Assembly: GCA_017415425.1 (NCBI GenBank)
Contig: JAFQGT010000016.1
Span: forward strand, 95,911-159,910
Origin: Oscillospiraceae bacterium
GTDB lineage: Bacteria > Bacillota > Clostridia > Oscillospirales > Oscillospiraceae
Reading direction: 5' to 3'
Length of the DNA stretch: 64,000 nt
The first letter of the stretch is position 1; every line of letters starts with the position of its first letter. The notes under the pieces were generated by a model. It was not told the origin of the DNA, searched no databases, and saw only the letters and a program-made list of their open reading frames with translations. Shown here in pieces: positions 52,304 through 62,472 of this stretch. The position numbers and the translations under genes were made by a program.

Positions 52304-52315
52304 ATTTTAATAAAA

Positions 52316-52360
52316 CTTAAACATTTTAAAAACAAGTCAAAAACATTGACAGTATATAAT
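52316..52360 (+). promoter_or_regulatory. response-regulator box A with -10 (first of two tandem promoters)
   Basis: Octamers CTTAAACA (52316), TAAAAACA (52327) and CAAAAACA (52338) are 11 bp apart; TATAAT starts at 52355, 17 bp after the start of the third. There is no ORF between this promoter and box B, only a CGCAAT/ATTGCG hairpin at 52382-52397, so it makes either a longer leader or a small RNA. Confidence 0.65.
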
Positions 52361-52421
52361 TCTCTTGTACGGTGAGGGAAGCGCAATAAGCATTGCGAAA
52401 GAAATTTTGAAATTAACAAAA

Positions 52422-52466
52422 CTCAAACATTTCTTAAAAATCTCTCAAACAACCGAAAGGTATAAT
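52422..52466 (+). promoter_or_regulatory. response-regulator box B with -10
   Basis: CTCAAACA (52422), CTTAAAAA (52433) and CTCAAACA (52444) at 11-bp steps; TATAAT starts at 52461, again 17 bp after the third. It drives the 90-residue protein gene at 52501. Confidence 0.72.
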
Positions 52467-52500
52467 GAACTCACAAAATCAAGAAAAGGAGATTATTACA

Positions 52501-52773
52501 ATGAATAATAAGCAGATGGAAATGATGGCAAGAGAACACGATATGTCCGGTATTGATGCAGAATTTGCAGAGGAAGTCGTGCAGGTTGCAGCTAACGGTG
52601 CCAAAAGTACCTATCAGAAAATTGAAGATGCTGTAGTTGGCGGCTACAAGAAGATTGAAACTGGTGTGGTTGAAGGCTTCGGGAAAGTGACTGACAAGTG
52701 TGTTGAAACACTCTTTGCCAAAGACGGCGAAACTGTAGAGGATGCAAAGAAAAGACTGAACGGCGAAAAATAA
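52501..52773 (+). CDS. small amphipathic repeat protein, first gene of the envelope locus
   Basis: 90 residues, no signal peptide or membrane segment. The middle contains two related units, AVVGGYKKIE and GVVEGFGKVT, and the end reads GETVEDAKKRL. Similar small VVGGYKKIE proteins are, as I recall, common but unnamed in clostridia; they look like membrane-surface or envelope-stress proteins. The ATG at 52501 has AAAAGGAGA upstream and is preferred to one at 52465, which lies three bases after the -10 box. Its promoter carries box B. Confidence 0.75.
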   Translation: MNNKQMEMMAREHDMSGIDAEFAEEVVQVAANGAKSTYQKIEDAVVGGYKKIETGVVEGFGKVTDKCVETLFAKDGETVEDAKKRLNGEK

Positions 52774-52799
52774 TCGTTGTTCTTTCGGAGGAAATCAAA

Positions 52800-53189
52800 A
52801 TGATGGAAAATACTTTCAGCTATAAATACTCTGCTAAAGAAAATGCAGAGGTACAGGCAATCAGAAAAAAATACCTTCCCAAAAGCGAAAGCAAATTGGA
52901 AGAGCTAAAGCGTCTTGATGAAACAGTTCAGGCTTCGGGAATGGTTGAATCCTTATGCGCCGGTATTGGTGGTGCGTTAATCTTCGGGTTGGGACTTTGC
53001 CTTGCAATGCAGGTAATCGGAAGTGGACTGGTGATGATGATCATTGGAGTTCTGGTCGGCATCGTAGGTATGGCAGGAATGCTCGTGGCATACCCCGTAT
53101 ATCGCAAGGTGTTCAGCGCAACCAAAGAAAAATATGCGCCGAGAATCCTTGAACTCACGGCAGAACTTACCGGCGAAAAAACAGAGTGA
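52800..53189 (+). CDS. two-helix membrane protein, paralogue of 61,599-62,006
   Basis: 129 residues. The N-terminus FSYKYSAKENAEVQAIRKKYLPKSE is soluble and basic; two hydrophobic segments at about 48-70 and 75-97; then a charged tail (FSATKEKYAPRILELTAEL). The same layout and many of the same residues occur in the gene at 61599, so the two are paralogues standing at opposite ends of the locus. GGAGG is eight bases before the ATG. Function unknown. Confidence 0.8.
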   Translation: MMENTFSYKYSAKENAEVQAIRKKYLPKSESKLEELKRLDETVQASGMVESLCAGIGGALIFGLGLCLAMQVIGSGLVMMIIGVLVGIVGMAGMLVAYPVYRKVFSATKEKYAPRILELTAELTGEKTE

Positions 53190-53200
53190 TTTTAATAAAA

Positions 53201-53245
53201 CTCAAACATTTCTCAAAACTTTTAAAAACATCGGCACGATATAAT
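53201..53245 (+). promoter_or_regulatory. response-regulator box C with -10
   Basis: CTCAAACA (53201), CTCAAAAC (53212) and TAAAAACA (53223) at 11-bp steps; TATAAT starts at 53240, 17 bp after the third. It drives the 100-residue protein gene and probably the genes beyond. Confidence 0.72.
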
Positions 53246-53319
53246 GTGCCTGTAAGATATGGTATCTATGGCTTATGCCGTGAAAATAAAAAATTATGAA
53301 AGGTTATAGGTGAACAACA

Positions 53320-53622
53320 ATGGCAAATTTTTTGAAGAAAGCATTTCAGGACATGAAGGAGAGCGCTCAGGCTCAGCACGAAGTTAGCAAGGCAGAGTTT
53401 GAGGCTGCAAAAGCTGAGAGCAGAGCTAATTTTGAGGAAAACAAAGGACATAACTCTATGGCCAGAGCGAAGGCGCAGGCAAAGAAGAGCTGGGATGATG
53501 CTCATATGACTCCCGCCGAGAGAGCTGCCAAGATGCAGGAAGAACGTGACGCACAGATAGCTGCGGCAAAAGCAAGAACAGCTGCTGCGAATGAACGTTA
53601 CGATGCAGCGAAAAAGAAATAA
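53320..53622 (+). CDS. small Ala/Glu/Lys-rich coiled-coil protein
   Basis: 100 residues with no membrane segment. Almost the whole chain is helical and charged (FEAAKAESRANFEENKG, AKARTAAANERYDAAKKK), with heptad-like spacing, so a coiled coil is likely. AGGTGAA precedes the start. It comes first after box C; a hairpin separates it from the cardiolipin synthase gene. No family is recognised. Confidence 0.75.
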   Translation: MANFLKKAFQDMKESAQAQHEVSKAEFEAAKAESRANFEENKGHNSMARAKAQAKKSWDDAHMTPAERAAKMQEERDAQIAAAKARTAAANERYDAAKKK

Positions 53623-53637
53623 TTAGACTGCCAATAA

Positions 53638-53660
53638 GCGAGGTGTGCTTTGCACCTCGC
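53638..53660 (+). promoter_or_regulatory. intra-operon hairpin before the cardiolipin synthase gene
   Basis: GCGAGGTG/CACCTCGC with a seven-base loop and no T run, so probably an mRNA processing or partial-attenuation site that sets more of the upstream small protein than of the downstream enzymes. Confidence 0.5.
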
Positions 53661-53685
53661 TATCGGTCTATTGTGGAGGTGCAGT

Positions 53686-55248
53686 ATGAAAAAGACAATA
53701 AGCTATGATGTGAATAACAAAACGGTGGAACGGGAGGTAAACTATATCCCTTTCCGCTATATTCTTGCTGTGCTTATTACGCTTTTTGAAGTTCTTTGCG
53801 TTATTGCGATTGTGGCTGCTCTCTGCTATTATGTACCGTATTTTTACTTAGCGGCTTGGGCAACGGAGATTGTCTGTGTTATTCGCATTATTGCCTCTGA
53901 TGACAACCCCGATTATAAAGTGCCGTGGCTTCTGTTTGTGCTGATCATTCCGATCGCCGGCTTTATGCTGTATTTTATGTTCTATTCCAGAACGTTGCAA
54001 AAGAAATTTATCAAGAGAATGAATGAGCTGAAAAGCCATACCTATAAGCAAGACGATAGTGATTTGTTACATACTCTTCGGGAAGAAAATCCCACAGCCG
54101 CTGCACAGGCAAAAATGCTGATGGGCATTGCGGATACACACCTATTCACAAACACAAAGCAGGAGTATTTCCCGCTTGGTGAGGATATGCACAGACGGTT
54201 GCTTCAGGATCTTGAAAGCGCCGAGAAGTTTATTTATATGGAATATTTCATCATTGAGGAAGGTAAGTTCTGGAATTCGGTATTGGATATTCTAAAAGCA
54301 AAAGCTGCCGTAGGCGTCGAAGTCAAGGTTTTATACGACGACATCGGTTGTATGGCAACCCTCCCCGGCGATTACCACAAGACATTGAAAACTTATGGTA
54401 TTGAAGCAACGCCTTTTTCAAGGCTTAAAGGTAATGCGGATAGTGAATTTAACAATCGCAGTCACCGCAAAATCACGGTTATTGACGGAAAAATCGGTTA
54501 TACCGGCGGCGTGAACATCGCTGATGAATATATCAACGAGATCGTAAAATATGGTCATTGGAAGGATACCGCCATTTGCCTTGAGGGTGAAGCTGTATGG
54601 GAACTGACAAAGCTGTTCCTTGTGGACTTCGGTATTAATGTAAAGAAACTGCCCGTTGTCAGAGAAGATCTGTATCCAACATTCCAGATCGATGAAGATG
54701 GCTACATCATTCCGTTTGGCGATGGCCCGCATCCTATTTATGAACGCAGAGTCGGCAAAAGTGTGATTCAAAATATGCTGTCTGCCGCCACACGCTATGC
54801 CTGGATGACCTCACCTTACCTTATTATCGACAACGATCTGTGCACCGATCTTGAAAATGCGGCTTTGCGTGGTGTGGATGTTCGCATTATTGTTCCGCAC
54901 ATTCCCGATAAAAAGCTCGTATTTGGTATGACACAAAGCTTCTACCACAGACTGATGGCGGCAGGCGTGAAGATATACGAATACGAACCCGGTTTCATTC
55001 ACGCTAAAAGTTATCTCGTTGATGACGAGTACGCTATGATCGGCACGATAAATCTTGATTACCGAAGTCTTGTTCACCACTTTGAAAACGGGGTATGGAT
55101 GTATGGGTGTGAGTCGATCAAAGACCTAAAGACAGATATGGAAGATACCTTGAGCAAAAGCATAGAGGTAACACCCCAAATGCTGAAAACAAATCTGCTG
55201 CAGCGGTTTATCCGTGCAGTAGTAAGAATATTTGCGCCGATGATGTAA
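53686..55248 (+). CDS. cls: cardiolipin synthase
   Basis: 520 residues. Condenses two phosphatidylglycerols to cardiolipin at the membrane. Two or three N-terminal membrane segments (about 24-52, 56-70, 80-100) precede two phospholipase-D motifs: H260-x-K in NRSHRKITVIDG and FIHAKSYLVDDE near 436-447 (HxKx4D form in both). Length and layout are normal for Cls. GGAGGTG precedes the ATG. Its place in an antimicrobial-peptide-type operon suggests it changes membrane charge or packing when the envelope is attacked. Confidence 0.95.
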   Translation: MKKTISYDVNNKTVEREVNYIPFRYILAVLITLFEVLCVIAIVAALCYYVPYFYLAAWATEIVCVIRIIASDDNPDYKVPWLLFVLIIPIAGFMLYFMFYSRTLQKKFIKRMNELKSHTYKQDDSDLLHTLREENPTAAAQAKMLMGIADTHLFTNTKQEYFPLGEDMHRRLLQDLESAEKFIYMEYFIIEEGKFWNSVLDILKAKAAVGVEVKVLYDDIGCMATLPGDYHKTLKTYGIEATPFSRLKGNADSEFNNRSHRKITVIDGKIGYTGGVNIADEYINEIVKYGHWKDTAICLEGEAVWELTKLFLVDFGINVKKLPVVREDLYPTFQIDEDGYIIPFGDGPHPIYERRVGKSVIQNMLSAATRYAWMTSPYLIIDNDLCTDLENAALRGVDVRIIVPHIPDKKLVFGMTQSFYHRLMAAGVKIYEYEPGFIHAKSYLVDDEYAMIGTINLDYRSLVHHFENGVWMYGCESIKDLKTDMEDTLSKSIEVTPQMLKTNLLQRFIRAVVRIFAPMM

Positions 55249-55268
55249 GGCGGAAAGAGAGGATAAAA

Positions 55269-56171
55269 ATGAACGCTATTGAAATCAAAAATCTATCCAA
55301 AAGCTTTCGTGGTATGTATGCGGTAGATCATCTGAATATGACCGTGCCGGCAGGTAGCATCTACGGCTTTATCGGTGAAAACGGTTCGGGTAAATCCACC
55401 ACTATGAAGCTTATCTGCGGACACCTTGTTCCCGACAGTGGTCAGATCAAGTTGTTCGGTAAAAAATACACCGATCCCGGTGTGAGAGTTCGTGTCGGCG
55501 CACTGATCGAGAACGCAGGCTGTTTCCCCGGCTCCAGCGTATATCAGAATCTTATGATGCAGTGCATCAATCTCGGTATCCAAAATGCTGACGACGAAAT
55601 CAGCCGTGTGCTTCGCATTGTTCGTATGGAGGAACACGCACAGCTTAAATTCAAAAAATGTTCTCTTGGTATGAAACAAAGAATCGGTATTGCTATGGCT
55701 CTACTTGGCGATCCGGCTCTGCTTATCCTGGACGAACCTATCAACGGACTTGATACCGACGGTATGCGAATTATGCGTGAAATCCTCGTGGATATTACAA
55801 AAAATTACGGTTGCACCGTTCTCATTTCCTCACACATTCTCGGTGAGCTTGAGAAGATTGCTACGCACTACGGCATTATTCGTCAGGGCAAGATGATTAT
55901 GGAGCTGTCTGCCAAAGAAATGGACTCAAGAGCGCAGGTGTTTACAACACTTAAAACCAAGGATATGAGGGGCGCTATGGAGGCGCTTCGGGCAAAGTTT
56001 GCCGATGTACGATATGAGAATGGTATGATTCGTGTATATGATGTGGATGATACCGCACGCATTGTTGATACTTTAATGAAAAACGGTCACGTTGTCAGCG
56101 AAATCAAAAAGAACAAAATCGGTCTTGAAGAATACTACATCGAACTGATGTCGGCAAAGGAGGTAAAATAA
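55269..56171 (+). CDS. BcrA-type ABC transporter ATP-binding protein 1
   Basis: 300 residues. ATPase of the bacitracin/lantibiotic-immunity type. Walker A GENGSGKSTT near 38-47, a signature-like KKCSLGMKQRIGIA near 126-139 (LGMKQR replaces LSGGQ, typical of this group), Walker B LLILDEPINGLD near 149-160 and switch His in ISSHILGE near 186-193. The C-terminal 80 residues are the variable BcrA tail. It is 1 bp ahead of its permease and about 65 per cent alike (by eye) to the second ATPase at 57023. Confidence 0.92.
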   Translation: MNAIEIKNLSKSFRGMYAVDHLNMTVPAGSIYGFIGENGSGKSTTMKLICGHLVPDSGQIKLFGKKYTDPGVRVRVGALIENAGCFPGSSVYQNLMMQCINLGIQNADDEISRVLRIVRMEEHAQLKFKKCSLGMKQRIGIAMALLGDPALLILDEPINGLDTDGMRIMREILVDITKNYGCTVLISSHILGELEKIATHYGIIRQGKMIMELSAKEMDSRAQVFTTLKTKDMRGAMEALRAKFADVRYENGMIRVYDVDDTARIVDTLMKNGHVVSEIKKNKIGLEEYYIELMSAKEVK

Positions 56172-56172
56172 A

Positions 56173-57009
56173 ATGACAAGAGAACTGAAATTCAGAAATC
56201 CGAGCTTTACGGAAAGAATCAAGGGTATGCTCGGCGTGGATTTTTACCGTCTGTTCCATACCCCTATGTTTTATATTTTCCTCGCCATTGCCGCCATTAT
56301 CCCTGCAATGGTTTCGGCTATGACGATGATGCCCGACCAAAACGGCAACACGATGGAACCCCTGTACTCAAACGTATGGCAGATCATTGCCGCTTCCGAA
56401 CCGCTTTATGTAATTAAAGGCATCGCCGATTATGCCAATATGAATATGGTCTTTATTTTCGGCGGTATTATGGTTTCCATTTTTATCGGACACGATTATA
56501 AGAGTGGATATGTAAAACAGCTCTTTACCACCCACGCAAAGAAGCAGGACTATATGATCTCCAAAACGATTACCTGCGCTTTTGCTATGGCGTGTATGTG
56601 TGTTACTTATCTTATTGGTGGTACACTCGGCGGAATATTCGCCGGATATTCTATGGAGGTCAATGTGGGCTCACTATTCATCGCCATTCTCGGTAAGATG
56701 ATTATGAGTATCGGCTGGGCAAGCCTTTACACCTTCCTCAACATCATTTTCAGAAGATATTTCGGTATTTCCATTGCTTCCTCTTTCTTCTTCGGAACAG
56801 GTATTTTGATTATCGGTGTAGCCGCTATTGTGGAAAATTTGTCTCTCCCGACTGCCTTTTTGAATCTTTTCCTCTATGGTTCGTCGGTGAATGCTTGCCT
56901 TGTATCGGGCATCGGAGCACTGCTTACCTGTATTGTCGTGTCGGTAGTGTGGGCTGTTATTTATAATCTGCTCGGCACGTGGATTCTTTACAAGAGCGAT
57001 GTATATTAA
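56173..57009 (+). CDS. ABC-2-type permease 1
   Basis: 278 residues, six membrane segments (first at about 28-48). Pairs with the preceding ATPase. The N-terminal MLGVDFYRLFHTPMFYIFL segment and the DYKSGYVKQLFTTHAKKQDYMISK loop near 115-138 recur in the second permease as MLKVDFRRMFKSKLFYILL and DFRSGYAKNLFTVRAKKGSYVVSK, so these two units are duplicates. Such pairs pump peptide antibiotics out of the membrane. GGAGG precedes the start. Confidence 0.88.
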   Translation: MTRELKFRNPSFTERIKGMLGVDFYRLFHTPMFYIFLAIAAIIPAMVSAMTMMPDQNGNTMEPLYSNVWQIIAASEPLYVIKGIADYANMNMVFIFGGIMVSIFIGHDYKSGYVKQLFTTHAKKQDYMISKTITCAFAMACMCVTYLIGGTLGGIFAGYSMEVNVGSLFIAILGKMIMSIGWASLYTFLNIIFRRYFGISIASSFFFGTGILIIGVAAIVENLSLPTAFLNLFLYGSSVNACLVSGIGALLTCIVVSVVWAVIYNLLGTWILYKSDVY

Positions 57010-57022
57010 GGAGGTGGCATAA

Positions 57023-57922
57023 ATGCACGCAGTTGAAATTACAAATCTTTCTAAAAACTTTGGTAATAAACAGGCTGTTAATGGACTGAACATGACTGTA
57101 CCGATGGGTGCAATCTACGGCTTCATCGGTGAAAACGGTTCAGGCAAATCCACCACTGAGAAAATGATCTGCGGTTTGATTCCGAAATCCGGTGGCTCCA
57201 TTAAGCTCTACGGAAAAGACCATACAGATGCGGCAGTCCGTGCAAACATAGGCGTACTGATTGAGTCTCCCGGCTGTTTCCCCGGTCTTACCGTTTGGGA
57301 CAATATGATGCTTCAGGCGGCTAACCTTGATATTCCTAATGCCGAAAAAGAGGTCGTAAAGATTCTGAAGTTGGTGAGAATGGAAGGTGCCGCAGGCAAC
57401 AAATACAAAAACTGTTCTCTCGGTATGAAGCAGCGAATCGGTATCGCAATGGCTCTGCTCGGCAATCCTGCCTTGCTTGTTCTTGACGAGCCTTTGAATG
57501 GTCTGGATGCTGACGGCATGCGCATTATGCGAGAAGTGCTTTGTGATATCATAAAAGACGGTAAACGCAGTATTTTAGTTTCTTCCCATCTGCTTGGAGA
57601 ACTGCAAAAGGTCGCAACACATTACGGTATCATCCGTCACGGTAAAATGATCTGCGAGATGACTGCCGCTGAGCTTGATGCAAGCTGCCGTACTTACGTT
57701 GCTTTGCAGGCAGAAGATATGAACAAAGCCAAAATGCTGCTCGGACATAAATGTTCCCGTGTAGAGCTGGACGAAGCAGATTATCTTCGTGTTTACGATA
57801 TGACCACACCCGAAGAAATCGTAACCTATCTGTATCAGAATGGTGTCACGGTTACGGAAATTAAAACCGACAAAATCGGTCTCGAAGAATACTATATCGA
57901 CCTTATGAAGGGAGGCAAATGA
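57023..57922 (+). CDS. BcrA-type ABC transporter ATP-binding protein 2
   Basis: 299 residues, a paralogue of the first ATPase over the full length: Walker A GENGSGKSTTEK, signature NCSLGMKQRIGIA, Walker B LLVLDEPLNGLD, and VSSHLLGE. It follows its neighbour after 13 bp with AAGGAGGTG before the ATG. The duplication of a whole ATPase-permease unit suggests two related but distinct substrates or a heteromeric pump. Confidence 0.92.
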   Translation: MHAVEITNLSKNFGNKQAVNGLNMTVPMGAIYGFIGENGSGKSTTEKMICGLIPKSGGSIKLYGKDHTDAAVRANIGVLIESPGCFPGLTVWDNMMLQAANLDIPNAEKEVVKILKLVRMEGAAGNKYKNCSLGMKQRIGIAMALLGNPALLVLDEPLNGLDADGMRIMREVLCDIIKDGKRSILVSSHLLGELQKVATHYGIIRHGKMICEMTAAELDASCRTYVALQAEDMNKAKMLLGHKCSRVELDEADYLRVYDMTTPEEIVTYLYQNGVTVTEIKTDKIGLEEYYIDLMKGGK

Positions 57923-57924
57923 GA

Positions 57925-58773
57925 ATGGAAAATACGATAAAATTTAAGCGAGTTAGTTCGTCGAAAGAAATAAAGAGTATGCTGAAGGTTGATTTCAGAA
58001 GAATGTTCAAATCAAAGCTCTTTTACATTTTGCTTCTCTGCGCCCTTGTTATACCGGTTCTTATGACCGTTATGATGACGATGATGGACGGATCGGTTTC
58101 TGTCGATCCTCAAACAGGTGTAGAAACCGTTATACACGGCCCCGAAAATGCGTGGCAGTCTATCGGTACATTGCCCACCGATGACGCAGTACACGGTGAA
58201 AACACCGAAGGTGATGCCGCAGCAATGATGGGCGGTATGGATATTATGAGTATGTGTAACATCAATATGATGTTTATGCTTGTAGCGGTGTTTATCTGTC
58301 TGTTTATCTCGGATGATTTCAGAAGCGGATATGCCAAAAACCTATTCACCGTGCGAGCTAAAAAAGGCAGCTATGTTGTTTCAAAAACAATCGCAGGCTT
58401 TGTCTGCGGTGCACTGATGCTCATTCTTTACTTTGTCGGTGCTATGCTCGGCGGTGCAATTTCCGGTCTGTCCTTTGACCTTGGAACTCTGAGTATCGTA
58501 AATATTGTGATGTGTATGATAGCAAAGGTTCTTCTGATGCTCGTATTCGTTCCAATCTTTGTACTTGTAAGTGTTGGAGCAAAGCAAAAGGCGTGGCTTG
58601 CTATTTGCGGTTCTCTCGGTGCAGGAATGCTTCTCTTTATGATGGTTGGAATGATTACTCCTCTTAATTCTACCATTATGCACATTGTAATGTGTCTTGC
58701 CGGCGGTGCAATGTTCAGCATTGGTCTCGGCGCTTGTAGCAAGCAGGTGTTAAATAAAACAAGTTTGGTATAA
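57925..58773 (+). CDS. ABC-2-type permease 2
   Basis: 282 residues, six membrane segments. Compared with permease 1 it has an extra extracytoplasmic stretch of about 45 residues after the first helix (about 52-97, with DGSVSVDPQTG and HGENTEGDAAAMMGGMD). The ATG at 57925 is preferred over 57919 because the GGAGG site is nine bases away rather than three; the earlier one overlaps the upstream stop. A strong terminator follows. Confidence 0.87.
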   Translation: MENTIKFKRVSSSKEIKSMLKVDFRRMFKSKLFYILLLCALVIPVLMTVMMTMMDGSVSVDPQTGVETVIHGPENAWQSIGTLPTDDAVHGENTEGDAAAMMGGMDIMSMCNINMMFMLVAVFICLFISDDFRSGYAKNLFTVRAKKGSYVVSKTIAGFVCGALMLILYFVGAMLGGAISGLSFDLGTLSIVNIVMCMIAKVLLMLVFVPIFVLVSVGAKQKAWLAICGSLGAGMLLFMMVGMITPLNSTIMHIVMCLAGGAMFSIGLGACSKQVLNKTSLV

Positions 58774-58779
58774 CGATTT

Positions 58780-58813
58780 AAGGCAACGTCATATCGGCGT
58801 TGCCTTATTTTTT
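58780..58813 (+). terminator. terminator of the cls/ABC operon
   Basis: AAGGCAACG/CGTTGCCTT stem, then ATTTTTTT. It separates the effector operon from the regulator operon. Confidence 0.9.
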
Positions 58814-58902
58814 GAAATCAACACTTTTTAAGGATTGTGTTGTTCAGTTGTGAATATAAAAACGATAAAATAAAAGTGCGATTTTTTCAAAAAACCTCGA
58901 AA

Positions 58903-58943
58903 CGCAAACAAAACTTTAACATTTGGGTGTTATACTGTATAAT
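58903..58943 (+). promoter_or_regulatory. response-regulator box D with -10 (autoregulation)
   Basis: CGCAAACA (58903) and CTTTAACA (58914) are 11 bp apart; TATACT starts at 58931, again 17 bp after the last octamer. A second -10-like TATAAT is at 58938. It lies upstream of the response regulator gene itself. Confidence 0.65.
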
Positions 58944-58972: not shown

Positions 58973-59644
58973 ATGTTTAAGATATTAGTTGTAGAGGATG
59001 ACAAGGAGCTGAATAAGACTGTTTGCTCTTTTTTGAACAACAGTGGCTATGAGGCAGTAGGATGTCTGAATGCGAATGATGCCTATGACGCTATGTATGA
59101 GAATATGTTCGACCTTATCGTATCCGACATTATGATGCCCGGCATTGACGGTTTTGAGTTTGCCCGAAATGTGCGGGAGCTGAACGAGGACATTCCGATC
59201 CTCTTTATGACCGCCCGTGATGATATTGCCTCCAAGCAAAGAGGTTTTCGTATTGGCGTCGATGATTATATGGTAAAGCCGATTGACCTTGACGAACTAT
59301 TTTTACGCATCGGTGCTCTGCTTCGCCGTGCCAAGATTGCATCAAGCCGTAAACTTGAAGTCGGAAGTTTTGTAATGGATGCCGATGAGCACACCGCTTA
59401 TTTGGGGGATGAAGAAATATCTCTCACCAACCGTGAGTTCAGCATCCTTTATAAACTGCTCAGTTATCCGAAAAAGACCTTTACACGCCAGCAGCTTATG
59501 GATGAATTTTGGGATGCGGATACCGAAACCGCACCGAGAGCTGTAGACGTGTATATGACAAAGCTCCGCACTAAACTCAGCGATTGTGAAGATTTTGAGA
59601 TAAAGACCGTTCACGGGCTTGGCTACAAGGCGGTGATCAAATGA
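58973..59644 (+). CDS. OmpR/PhoB-family response regulator
   Basis: 223 residues. Receiver domain 1-118 with acidic pair D9-D10, phosphorylated D52 (IVSDIMMPG), Thr near 80 (FMTAR) and Lys near 102 (VKPID). A winged-helix DNA-binding domain fills about 127-223 (FSILYKLLSYPKKTFTRQQL, then VDVYMTKLRTKL). AGCGGAGG precedes the ATG. OmpR-type regulators bind tandem sites about 11 bp apart, which fits boxes A-D. Its stop overlaps the kinase start (ATGA). Confidence 0.95.
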   Translation: MFKILVVEDDKELNKTVCSFLNNSGYEAVGCLNANDAYDAMYENMFDLIVSDIMMPGIDGFEFARNVRELNEDIPILFMTARDDIASKQRGFRIGVDDYMVKPIDLDELFLRIGALLRRAKIASSRKLEVGSFVMDADEHTAYLGDEEISLTNREFSILYKLLSYPKKTFTRQQLMDEFWDADTETAPRAVDVYMTKLRTKLSDCEDFEIKTVHGLGYKAVIK

Positions 59645-60708
59645 AAAAGCCGACACTGAAAAGTATATTGGGGTCGATCAGTAGCTTCCTGCTGTTCTTT
59701 CTGACGGTAGGGTTTATAGTGTCCTGCAGTATGATGCTGTTTGTCAATATATTGGCAGACACAATGGAGCTCACGCTTACTCAAGAAAATATTGCTACTG
59801 CGGCAAAGGTTACTTTTTGGAATGTGATATTAATTACACTCCTTTTCAAGTTAGCGGATTACATTCGCCGTAAAATAATGGTGGAACGGCCAACGAAAAT
59901 TATTACCGAAGCCACCGAAAAGATTATGTCCGGTGATTTTTCTGTATGTATCAAGCCAATGCAAAGCTCCGGTATGGAAGGATTCAATCAGATTGCTGAA
60001 GCGATCAACCAAATGGCCGAAGAACTTGGGAGCGTTGAAACACTCCGCACCGACTTTATTGCCAACGTTTCCCACGAAATGAAAACGCCCCTTGCCGTGA
60101 TGCAGAATTACGGCACACTTTTACAAGTTACCGATTTGCCCGATGAAAAACGTGTAGAGTATGCAAAAGGCGTAACCGATGCTTCCCGCCGTCTGGCTGA
60201 AATGATGACAAATATTCTGAAGCTTAACCGCCTTGAAAATCAGCAGATTTTTCCCGAAATCACCGAGTTTGATTTAGGCGAACAACTTTGCGAATGTTTG
60301 TTGCAATTTGAGAACGTGTGGGAAAAGAAAAATATCGAAATTGATACTGATATTGCCGAAGATATCAAGGTGGCTGCAGATGCAGAGCTTCTATCACTCG
60401 TGTGGAATAATTTGTTTTCCAATGCCTTTAAATTCACCGAGGAAGGCGGCACGGTATCATTATCTTTAACTGCTACTGAGCATCACGCCATTATCAGAGT
60501 GAGGGACACCGGTTGTGGAATGACTGCCGAGATAGGCGCACATATCTTCGAGAAGTTCTATCAGGGCGATACTTCCCATTCTGCACAGGGTAACGGTCTT
60601 GGCCTTGCTCTTGTGAAGCGTGTGATAGATATTATGCAGGGTGAAATCGGCGTTGAGAGCGTAGTCGGCAAGGGCTCTACCTTCACCGTAAAAATCCGGA
60701 GGGTTTGA
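59641..60708 (+). CDS. sensor histidine kinase
   Basis: 355 residues. Two membrane segments (about 12-38 and 52-74) with only a short outside loop, as in the intramembrane-sensing kinases tied to ABC transporters; then a HAMP-like linker, HisKA with H145 (ANVSHEMKTPLA), and a HATPase domain with N box (WNNLFSNAFKF), DTGCGM and GNGLGLALVK. The short loop suggests that the signal comes through the membrane or a partner protein, not by direct ligand binding. Coupled to the response regulator gene. Confidence 0.94.
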   Translation: MKKPTLKSILGSISSFLLFFLTVGFIVSCSMMLFVNILADTMELTLTQENIATAAKVTFWNVILITLLFKLADYIRRKIMVERPTKIITEATEKIMSGDFSVCIKPMQSSGMEGFNQIAEAINQMAEELGSVETLRTDFIANVSHEMKTPLAVMQNYGTLLQVTDLPDEKRVEYAKGVTDASRRLAEMMTNILKLNRLENQQIFPEITEFDLGEQLCECLLQFENVWEKKNIEIDTDIAEDIKVAADAELLSLVWNNLFSNAFKFTEEGGTVSLSLTATEHHAIIRVRDTGCGMTAEIGAHIFEKFYQGDTSHSAQGNGLGLALVKRVIDIMQGEIGVESVVGKGSTFTVKIRRV

Positions 60709-60709
60709 T

Positions 60710-61609
60710 ATGGACTGGAAGAAAATCGGGAAAGCCTTGTTGTTTCCTCACATTGCTATAATGATAATTCTGCTTCCTATCGCCACGGTGTTTTTGGTAT
60801 ATTCCTTAGTGTTTATGGGGACGGATTCCATTATTGCCATTGTGTCCTATGTACTTGCGTTTTACACGCTTGTGGTCTGGACTCTGAAAGTGCCGTATTT
60901 AATTCAGTTTTTTAAGACTTTCAAAGATGAAAACAAATACGCAAGACGGTGGCAGGACGATGAAAGACTGCGAGTAAACGTATCGCTTTACGGTACGCTG
61001 ATTTGGAACACGGCTTACGCACTCTTGCAGCTCGGTATGGGATTTTGGCATCACACATTTTGGTTTTATTCCCTTGCGGGGTATTATATCGCCTTAGCGG
61101 TTATGCGCTTTTTCTTAGTGCGGCATACAAGCCGTCATAAACCCGGCGAGCTTATGAAAGAAGAACTTATTAAGTATCGTGCCTGCGGGATTGTGTTCCT
61201 TTTAATGAACTTGGCTCTTGCGCTCATTATTTTCTTTATGGTGTATTGGAACAGGACTTTCAATCATCACGAAATTACTACGATTACGATAGCTGCATAC
61301 ACCTTTGCCTCACTGACAATGGCGATTATGAACGTGGTGAAATACCGTAAATATAACAGCCCCGTATATTCTGCTTCCAAGGCTATTAGCCTTACGGCAG
61401 CCTTGGTATCAATGCTCACCTTGGAGTCTACAATGCTGACAACCTTCGGTGACGGTACGATGGATCTGACAACCAGACGCATTATGCTTGGAGCTACGGG
61501 CGGTGTGATTTCGGTATTTATCATTGGAATGGCAATTTATATGATTGTGCAGAGTAATAAAAAATTAAAGCTGTTAAGAACAGCGGAGGATGAAAAAGAT
61601 GGAGAATAA
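60710..61609 (+). CDS. multi-spanning membrane protein of unknown function in the regulator operon
   Basis: 299 residues and about seven membrane segments (near 12-34, 40-62, 100-120, 124-140, 165-185, 195-215, 262-285). No catalytic motif is evident. It starts 1 bp after the kinase stop, with GGAGGG upstream, and its 3' end overlaps the next gene. Position between kinase and small membrane protein suggests a sensing or accessory role, which is inference only. Confidence 0.8.
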   Translation: MDWKKIGKALLFPHIAIMIILLPIATVFLVYSLVFMGTDSIIAIVSYVLAFYTLVVWTLKVPYLIQFFKTFKDENKYARRWQDDERLRVNVSLYGTLIWNTAYALLQLGMGFWHHTFWFYSLAGYYIALAVMRFFLVRHTSRHKPGELMKEELIKYRACGIVFLLMNLALALIIFFMVYWNRTFNHHEITTITIAAYTFASLTMAIMNVVKYRKYNSPVYSASKAISLTAALVSMLTLESTMLTTFGDGTMDLTTRRIMLGATGGVISVFIIGMAIYMIVQSNKKLKLLRTAEDEKDGE

Positions 61610-62006
61610 AGAGAAAGAAACCTTTAACTATACCTATTCTGCAAAACAGCAGGAAGAAATCAAAGCAATCCGAAAGAAATATTCCGCACCCGAAGAAAAA
61701 GAGGACAAAATGGCACAACTTCGCCGTCTTGACCACGGTGTGACGCAAAAAGCTCAGGCAGTTTCTCTTGTGTTCGGTGTAATTGGTGCTTTGATTTTAG
61801 GGTTTGGAATGAGTCTTGCAATGACCGATTTGGGCGAAATCCTTGGTTCATACAGAGGAATGTCTATGCTGTTTGGAATTATAATCGGTGTTGTCGGTAT
61901 CATTCTCGTGAGCCTCGCTTATCCTCTTTACAACCGCATTGTTAAGAAAGAGCGTGAGAAGATTGCTCCTGAAATTCTTCGTCTGACAGACGAACTGATG
62001 AAATGA
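61599..62006 (+). CDS. two-helix membrane protein, paralogue of 52,800-53,189
   Basis: 135 residues. FNYTYSAKQQEEIKAIRKKYSAPEEKED near the start, two hydrophobic segments at about 52-75 and 84-106, and a KIAPEILRLTDEL tail match the paralogue in order and spacing. The ATG at 61599 has GGAGGA eight bases upstream; it overlaps the preceding gene by 11 bp. Function unknown. Confidence 0.8.
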   Translation: MENKEKETFNYTYSAKQQEEIKAIRKKYSAPEEKEDKMAQLRRLDHGVTQKAQAVSLVFGVIGALILGFGMSLAMTDLGEILGSYRGMSMLFGIIIGVVGIILVSLAYPLYNRIVKKEREKIAPEILRLTDELMK

Positions 62007-62016
62007 GGATGGCTGT

Positions 62017-62472
62017 ATGAATACCCCTAACAATAAGCGATACCGGGATATAGAGGAAAGCATAAATGCAGCTTTTATTTCCTTGCTTCAGGATAAGGAA
62101 CTGCGTAAAATTACCGTTACAGATATATGTGAGCTCGCCGGTATAGAGCGCAGTACCTTCTATGCTCACTATGAAGATGTGGCGGCATTGGCAAATGCTT
62201 ATGCGGCCCAAGTTGAAAAGCAGGTGTCCGAGCAACCGCATACTGAAAATGATTTTTCTTGGATATTTGACTACATAAAAGAACATCCCGACCTTTTCAG
62301 GATTTATTTCAAACTCGGTGTCAGTCAAGTGTCTACAGACTATAAGACTATCTTTTTCAGAAACGGCGCTTATTCCGTTGCGAAAATGTGGTTTGAGGAA
62401 GGATGTGTTGAGTCCTCTGAACAAATGGGAACGATAGTAAAACGGGAATACAATAAAATCCATAGTAATTAA
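62017..62472 (+). CDS. TetR-family transcriptional regulator
   Basis: 151 residues, shorter than most TetR proteins. The N-terminal HTH reads TVTDICELAGIERSTFYAHYEDVAAL near 34-59 (the recognition helix includes STFYAHY). The ligand domain is reduced (about 70-151). It is 10 bp behind the small membrane protein gene, so it is probably the last gene of the regulator operon. Its targets are not evident. Confidence 0.85.
   Translation: MNTPNNKRYRDIEESINAAFISLLQDKELRKITVTDICELAGIERSTFYAHYEDVAALANAYAAQVEKQVSEQPHTENDFSWIFDYIKEHPDLFRIYFKLGVSQVSTDYKTIFFRNGAYSVAKMWFEEGCVESSEQMGTIVKREYNKIHSN

Follow-up and report, generated by a model that had tools for sequence, protein, structure and literature searches.

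How does a cluster of genes for small proteins, a cardiolipin synthase and two ATP-binding cassette (ABC) pumps come to carry helix-phased, A-rich repeats in front of its promoters, and are these repeats read by the two-component response regulator encoded at position 58973 of the same DNA? The question is raised by a 64,000-nucleotide stretch, referred to here as the window, from an Oscillospiraceae bacterium (assembly GCA_017415425.1, contig JAFQGT010000016.1, positions 95,911 to 159,910). The window lies on contig C3 of the organism's own genome, a 1.73-Mb assembly of 41 contigs, and the cluster runs in the order P1, P2, P3, cls, a first ABC pair, a second ABC pair, a terminator, the regulator, a histidine kinase, MEM and P2b. 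The conclusion that the repeats are a real, conserved and specific operator system, and that the cluster is a local self-regulated regulon, is well supported. We put at roughly 87% the probability that the OmpR/PhoB-type regulator from 58973 binds the 11-bp repeats and, acting from the -35 position, switches its own cluster on.

The repeats stand at four promoters, all on the forward strand, where the octamers and -10 boxes can be read directly from the sequence.

52304..52360, + strand: promoter A, half-sites at 52305 (TTTTAATA), 52316 (CTTAAACA), 52327 (TAAAAACA) and 52338 (CAAAAACA); -10 box TATAAT at 52355-52360.
52410..52467, + strand: promoter B, half-sites at 52411 (AATTAACA), 52422 (CTCAAACA), 52433 (CTTAAAAA) and 52444 (CTCAAACA); -10 box TATAAT at 52461-52466.
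53189..53246, + strand: promoter C, half-sites at 53190 (TTTTAATA), 53201 (CTCAAACA), 53212 (CTCAAAAC) and 53223 (TAAAAACA); -10 box TATAAT at 53240-53245.
58898..58943, + strand: promoter D, two half-sites at 58903 (CGCAAACA) and 58914 (CTTTAACA); extended -10 TGT-TATACT, with the hexamer at 58931, and an overlapping TTAACA(58916)-16-TATAAT(58938).

The initial annotation had described octamers in 11-bp steps, with the start of the last one always 17 bp from the start of a -10 box, and a check against the sequence found the coordinates, the steps and the distance right at all four promoters. Its account of the octamers themselves holds in part. Some are close to CTCAAACA, but the set is not uniform, and some members differ at two or three positions. 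The three octamers given for A, B and C are present, but each of these promoters really has four half-sites, a conserved TTAAYA 11 bp upstream (52305, 52411 and 53190) having been missed. The third of the four, the middle octamer of the earlier description, is degenerate. Promoters A and B form a tandem pair 106 bp apart, and locus L188 (6732-6897) has a similar tandem pair 108 bp apart.

The same annotation stated that no promoter has a good -35 box. This is valid for A, B and C only, because D holds TTAACA-16-TATAAT at 58916-58943. In a promoter scan, no sigma-type match uses the -10 boxes of A, B or C. The element at D matches the sigma-type consensus at 11 of 12 positions; in total, the scan gave as many matches as shuffled sequences do. 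A good -35-like hexamer does exist at D, but it belongs to a second -10 box. With a site over the -35 position, 17 bp to the -10 box at A to D and a poor -35, the promoters have the geometry of class II-type activation. The second promoter at D could give basal expression of the regulator, which leaves the overall interpretation unchanged.

Relatives provide the means to ask if this arrangement is more than a local likeness. Sixty genomes, the organism's own included, were searched with P1, P3 and MEM, the box not being considered, and the neighbourhoods were then fetched. P1 was found in 22 of the 60 genomes, P3 in 6 and MEM in 33, and the regulator is present in 20 loci outside the window. 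Distances from AAACA to TANNNT were counted in these regulator loci, except in the near-identical L044. Ahead of the other cluster genes, they peak at 36 bp (16 pairs) and 14 bp (6 pairs), with 3 pairs at 25 bp, among 43 pairs at distances up to 45 bp. Upstream of the regulator, there are 15 pairs at 25 bp and also 15 at 11 bp, the latter because the TTAACA half-site itself forms a TANNNT. Apart from these 11-bp pairs, the peaks fall at the distances predicted by the 11-bp phasing and the 17-bp offset.

Alignment resolves the sites into two architectures. The P-type, found before small-protein, cls and ABC genes, reads TTTTAAYA - 3 - CTCAAACA - 3 - degenerate - 3 - half-site - 9 - TANAAT. The D-type, found before the regulator, reads CGCAAACA - 3 - CTTTAACA - 6 - TGn - TATNAT and has an extended -10. 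Models were built from the relatives only, on sequence alone and with no sequence from the window: R1 from 18 P-type sites and R2 from 15 of the D-type. The R2 alignment omits two of the 17 AAACA-25-TANNNT matches, which lie before P1 and not before the regulator.

When these models are turned on the organism's own genome, they return the window's promoters. The top three R1 matches are C (E = 1.9e-11), B (6.2e-10) and A (8.3e-6), and the next has an E value of 0.066. Promoter D (E = 8.3e-12) is the only significant R2 match, with the next at 1.2. Of 537 (R1) and 681 (R2) first-look candidates, the genome searches scored the best 150, a limit under which weak sites could escape notice; run on the window with the filters off, the models pick out these four sites again. 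The whole-genome scan that had been proposed as a check on the regulon thus finds no match outside A to D comparable to them under R1 and R2. A loose two-octamer pattern allowing up to three mismatches gave 14 genome matches against 13 for the reversed pattern; it cannot separate signal from noise and was discarded as a test.

A larger set of loci was then available as held-out material. The best 80 of a longer list of closest regulator loci (79 to 96% identity) included five already used, leaving 75. The filter removed identity over 300 bp with the fetched loci and among the new loci themselves; near-identity passes, and some of the 75 are possibly close kin. The listed loci include metagenome-assembled genomes labelled Oscillospiraceae, Clostridia, Ruminococcus, Lachnospiraceae and others, many of them from the ruminant gut. 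In 72 of the 75, R2 gives a match (E ≤ 0.028) at most 300 bp upstream of the regulator. Six more R2 matches (E 0.0078 to 0.084) lie away from the regulator, five of them overlapping P-type boxes. R1 matches with E ≤ 5.1e-5 in the 80 loci fall no more than 700 bp before a homologue of a cluster gene in 52 of 55 cases, or 47 of 48 without the five repeated loci, the exception being L204.

Spacing is kept just as closely. Sufficient sequence upstream of the regulator was available in 74 held-out loci, and 48 of the 75 have a recognised first small-protein, cls or ABC gene; in the other 27 the upstream gene is unrecognised or too little sequence precedes it. AAACA stands 25 bp before TANNNT in 59 of the 74 regulator regions. 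In the 48 small-protein, cls or ABC regions, it stands at 36 bp in 41, at 14 bp in 35 and at 25 bp in 8. At other distances the latter set has at most 11 pairs and the regulator set at most 18, aside from 46 at 11 bp (the half-site itself), and 200 dinucleotide shuffles of either set gave no more than 7 pairs at any distance. The upstream TTAAYA half-site accompanies 38 of 41 P-type sites. Both exact D-type half-sites occur in 61 of 74 regulator regions, every one of which (61/61) has TANNNT at 17 bp. Of these 61, 56 have the TG that marks an extended -10, and 18 have a further TANNNT at 24 bp, always alongside the one at 17. The initial annotation had proposed to check if homologous loci keep the phasing, and they do so in fetched and held-out relatives alike. 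Direct repeats one helical turn apart, in 11-bp steps in both the window and its relatives, are what would be expected of an operator for an OmpR/PhoB-type regulator, and binding by the protein from 58973 is predicted on this basis.

The box also travels with the regulator gene. At an orthologue threshold of E ≤ 1e-85, 21 of the 60 genomes have the regulator. R2 gives a match at E ≤ 1e-6 in 20 of the 21 and in none of the other 39 (Fisher 5e-15); for regulator genomes outside the R2 training set, the count is 5 of 6 against 0 of 39 (Fisher 4.9e-6). R1 at E ≤ 1e-4 is found in 18 of the 21 regulator genomes and in 2 of the 39 others (G007 and G056, both in the R1 training set). The box is best conserved immediately before the regulator gene. 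In G035, a P3 gene with a box (contig C56) and the regulator (C18) lie well inside different contigs, a layout in a single metagenome-assembled genome that suggests action at a distance. The ABC box of G033 is likewise on another contig than the regulator; both are near contig ends that may adjoin, and this case was not counted as trans action.

Loci of a second kind carry some of the same genes. Seven of them (L082, L084, L086, L088, L091, L093 and L095) have a divergent TetR-type gene beside MEM and P1 and are without regulator and kinase; this variant is the same set of effectors under another regulator. An octamer matrix, trained on the window's own sites and applied solely to this control, scored above 12 in 0 of the 7 TetR loci and in 15 of 20 regulator loci (those failing were L044, L081, L096, L098 and L103). 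An R1 search of the TetR-locus genomes gave only weak matches, in G029 and G047, on other contigs.

Several results weigh against the proposed regulator and its link to the box. The main ones, as regards an exclusive link, are G007 and G056. G056, a genome of another family, has a four-site box (E 3.9e-9; L042, C24:44685-44743) and nothing closer to the regulator than a protein of 36% identity. In G007, the box stands at a locus without regulator and kinase, and the best counterpart of the regulator elsewhere in the genome has 48% identity. At this G007 locus (L079, on contig C58), the box, P1, two P2-like genes and the end of MEM are kept, and the regulator, the kinase and most of MEM have apparently been lost, either by a real deletion or through an assembly fault. 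The association is imperfect in the other direction as well: G025 has the regulator with a weak R2 box (E 0.008), G008, G010 and G025 have the regulator and no R1 match at E ≤ 1e-4, R1 finds a match in 4 of 7 regulator genomes outside its training set, and three of the 75 held-out regulators (L235, L246 and L248) have no R2 match. Some genomes that lack the regulator, G026 and G051 among them, have weaker R2 matches (E 0.0019 to 0.1). Conservation is no higher in the DNA-binding domain than in the receiver, the mean being 0.87 in each over 75 ungapped sequences, the window's included. Of the three P-type promoters in the window, A is the weakest, the DNA that separates it from B holds no convincing gene, and D can be read as an ordinary sigma-type promoter with TATAAT at 58938. 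The relatives also share descent, so that counts of loci are not counts of independent events.

These points bear on what else the repeats could be. They might be operators for a different DNA-binding protein, either another OmpR-type regulator of the genome or the TetR-like protein encoded at 62017, and the four-site boxes kept by G056 and G007 without a close regulator orthologue lend this some weight, as do distant OmpR-type paralogues (48-49% identity) in G007 and G041. It is nonetheless quite improbable given how R2 tracks the regulator orthologue (20/21 against 0/39 at E ≤ 1e-6) and that conservation of the box is best right before the regulator gene. For the TetR-like protein, the absence of the box from the TetR loci without the regulator (0/7) ruled it out as the reader, and 11-bp direct repeats suit OmpR/PhoB proteins, not TetR dimers. 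Phased A-tracts could instead strengthen the promoters without any regulator, through intrinsic curvature or as UP-like elements. The sites are indeed A-rich and helix-phased, and runs of at least four A occur in the promoter-proximal two octamers at 23 and at 27 of the 40 held-out sites compared, all of them chosen for having AAACA at -36. Such runs are found in just 0 of 40 (TTAAYA) and 3 of 40 (at -39) of the best-conserved octamers, which rules out A-tract curvature as the main cause; half-sites of relatives such as CGCCAACA keep the same phase and the boxes go with the regulator gene, leaving this explanation very improbable.

A different objection concerns the direction of control at D, where the box overlaps the -35 of TTAACA-16-TATAAT and could serve negative autoregulation. 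The 11/12 consensus at 58916-58943 fits such repression, with the reservation that the scan total is that of shuffles, and so does TANNNT at 24 bp in 18 of 61 held-out regulator promoters. All 18 of these also have the -10 at 17 bp, as do the full 61, TG is present in 56 of 61, and the geometry is the same as at the target promoters, so repression at D appears unlikely. Chance likeness among A+T-rich intergenic stretches would have to be considered for sites found by eye in A-rich DNA, and a loose pattern gives 14 matches against 13 reversed. It was ruled out by the relatives-only models and the conservation in held-out loci, and we give it practically no credence. Activation of the cluster by its own OmpR/PhoB-type regulator is the reading followed below.

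The genes of the cluster are as follows.

52501..52773, + strand: P1, a 90-residue protein with 11-residue repeats (GYKKIETGVVE type), presumed target of promoter B (and A).
52800..53189, + strand: P2, a small protein with hydrophobic segments, presumably cotranscribed with P1.
53320..53622, + strand: P3, a 100-residue small protein rich in Ala, Lys and Glu.
53683..55248, + strand: cls, cardiolipin synthase (TIGR04265, PLDc_2).
55269..57009, + strand: first ABC pair, ATPase at 55269-56171 and permease at 56173-57009.
57023..58773, + strand: second ABC pair, ATPase at 57023-57922 (named from its translation) and permease at 57919-58773.
58779..58813, + strand: terminator-like hairpin with a 12-pair stem and a T tail, which separates the pumps from the regulator operon.
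58973..59644, + strand: response regulator with receiver and winged-helix DNA-binding domain.
59641..60708, + strand: histidine kinase (HisKA, HATPase_c), overlapping the regulator gene by 4 bp.
60710..61609, + strand: MEM, a hydrophobic protein that matches no Pfam family.
61590..62006, + strand: P2b, a P2-like small membrane-type protein at the end of the conserved core.

The regulator scores 91.2 bits with PF00072 and 76.3 bits with PF00486, both over the cut-off. It is therefore of the OmpR/PhoB type, as had been supposed from the sequence, and the box in front of it, D, is the top match of R2. It is not a PhoB orthologue by TIGR02154 (169.2 bits against a cut-off of 296.2) or a VanR by the three NCBIfam VanR models (137.8 to 147.2 bits against 350 to 480). 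The cls product, at 330.6 bits against the TIGR04265 cut-off of 290, is a cardiolipin synthase. The ATPase of the first pair matches ABC_tran, and among NCBIfam models it is closest to TIGR03740 (lantibiotic protection); it resembles LanFEG-type lantibiotic-protection transporters in this, yet at 206.9 bits it stays under the cut-off of 309.75 and outside that family. For ABC2_membrane_4, the permease of the first pair reaches 26.6 bits, slightly under the cut-off of 27, and that of the second pair 40.8 bits. The Pfam scan found no family for P1, P2 and P3 either, and the NCBIfam scan found none for P1, P2, P3 and P2b. P2 (52800-53189) and P2b (61590-62006) are alike by cross-hits and flank the cluster, and several relatives have at least two copies.

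The initial annotation proposed a local, self-regulated regulon covering the small proteins, cls, both ABC pumps and the regulator operon, and this extent is supported by the specificity of the sites, the conserved phasing, the co-occurrence with the regulator, and boxes before cls and ABC genes. In relatives, a P-type box precedes P1-, P2- and P3-like genes, cls (G016, L252) and the first ABC gene (G006, G033, L201); its position directly before cls and ABC genes supports cls and the pumps as regulon members. In the window, no box stands before the pump genes, which come a short distance after P3 and cls and would be transcribed by read-through from promoter C. Boxes also stand before a gene of about 400 residues resembling a condensation-domain acyltransferase (G018, G028), an epimerase-like gene (L204) and, in weak form, a radical-SAM-like gene (G035), all named by eye. 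The genes at L180, L181, L182 and L204 are possible lipid- or glycolipid-related members of the regulon. At L218 (6562-7875), a single open frame encodes an epimerase-like protein with P1-type repeats at its end, a fusion that ties the epimerase-like and P1-type genes together.

A mechanism can be proposed in which the kinase encoded alongside would phosphorylate the regulator, and the phosphorylated regulator would bind head to tail as dimers, its sites being direct repeats with an 11-bp period and the half-site pattern [T/C][T/C]AA[A/C]A. Two dimers would be held by the four half-sites of each of A, B and C (about -62 to -22), and one by the two half-sites of D (about -40 to -22). In each case the last half-site would cover the position of the -35, which is absent or weak there, on a single face of the helix and at a constant distance from the -10, so that the regulator could contact RNA polymerase. 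It would then raise its own operon from D, P1 and P2 from A and B, and P3, cls and the two ABC pumps from C, the pumps by read-through. Binding, phosphorylation and activation rather than repression are what we infer here from the arrangement of the sites.

Class II-type activation is known for PhoB, and the phoA promoter of E. coli K-12, read from its sequence, resembles A to D: its repeats are 11 bp apart and the last starts 17 bp before TATAGT, which we take to be the -10 box. The start of a repeat is conventional, and by their cores (TGTCA and AAACA) the two registers may differ by about 2 bp. The phoB promoter of E. coli was not used, as its -10 box could not be assigned with confidence. 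PhoB half-sites have TGTCA and serve phosphate genes, whereas those described here have AAACA or TTAAYA and serve cls, pumps and small proteins.

The pho box has been described as a pair of direct repeats, each of 11 nt, with head-to-tail binding (PMC4415409), and PhoB as having strict spacing to the core promoter (PMC10294691). E. coli ArcA sites consist of two to five direct repeats, mostly 11 bp from centre to centre, and are many and varied genome-wide (PMC3798270), whereas two fixed architectures at one locus are found in the present genome. The nearest described logic found in the literature searched is that of the Bacillus anthracis EdsRS two-component system, which raises its own operon and an ABC-transporter/cardiolipin synthase operon under envelope damage (PMC7157781). 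With a GerE-type helix-turn-helix in EdsR and a HisKA3 domain in EdsS (PMC7157781), that system differs in regulator class from the one at 58973, and 'direct repeat' and 'binding site' are absent as terms from the main text of that paper.

The function of the regulon must be sought in its targets. Judged by cls, the pumps and its small proteins, the regulon may serve against stress on the membrane or from antimicrobial peptides; the joint regulation of a cardiolipin synthase with ABC exporters and membrane-related small proteins points to a response to membrane stress or to peptide antibiotics. P1 has two to four repeats (GYKKIENGVVx), their number varying among relatives (L185-L263). Across 18 homologues, two of which were given a frame extended at the upstream end, identity is 0.225 at a lag of 11 residues, 0.155 at a lag of 22 and at most 0.104 at other lags, and the hydrophobic period in the two homologues tested is 3.65 to 3.80. 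Period and repeats, as judged from sequence, fit an 11/3 amphipathic helix. Synucleins form an 11/3 amphipathic helix, and P1 looks like a helix of the synuclein or perilipin type.

In mechanism the system is an ordinary one, and its novelty lies in the regulon. The regulon itself, its half-site and the clean split between four-site effector promoters and a two-site promoter for the regulator appear to be new, and no description of this regulon was found in those parts of the literature that were searched; the principle of phased direct repeats replacing the -35 is already known. As a tentative and rather speculative picture, the cluster may be an unnamed membrane-protection system of gut Clostridia, in which one dedicated two-component system uses two operator architectures (two dimers for the effectors, one dimer and an extended -10 for itself) to co-induce cardiolipin synthesis, two pumps and P1, whose synuclein-like repeats would coat the anionic membrane. 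Many uncultured gut Clostridia have the regulon (at least 80 regulator loci), and its exact operator grammar allows the targets in a genome to be listed from the sequence by itself. The regulon brings cardiolipin synthesis, pumps and the repeat proteins together under one regulator, and in this way points to the purpose of those proteins.

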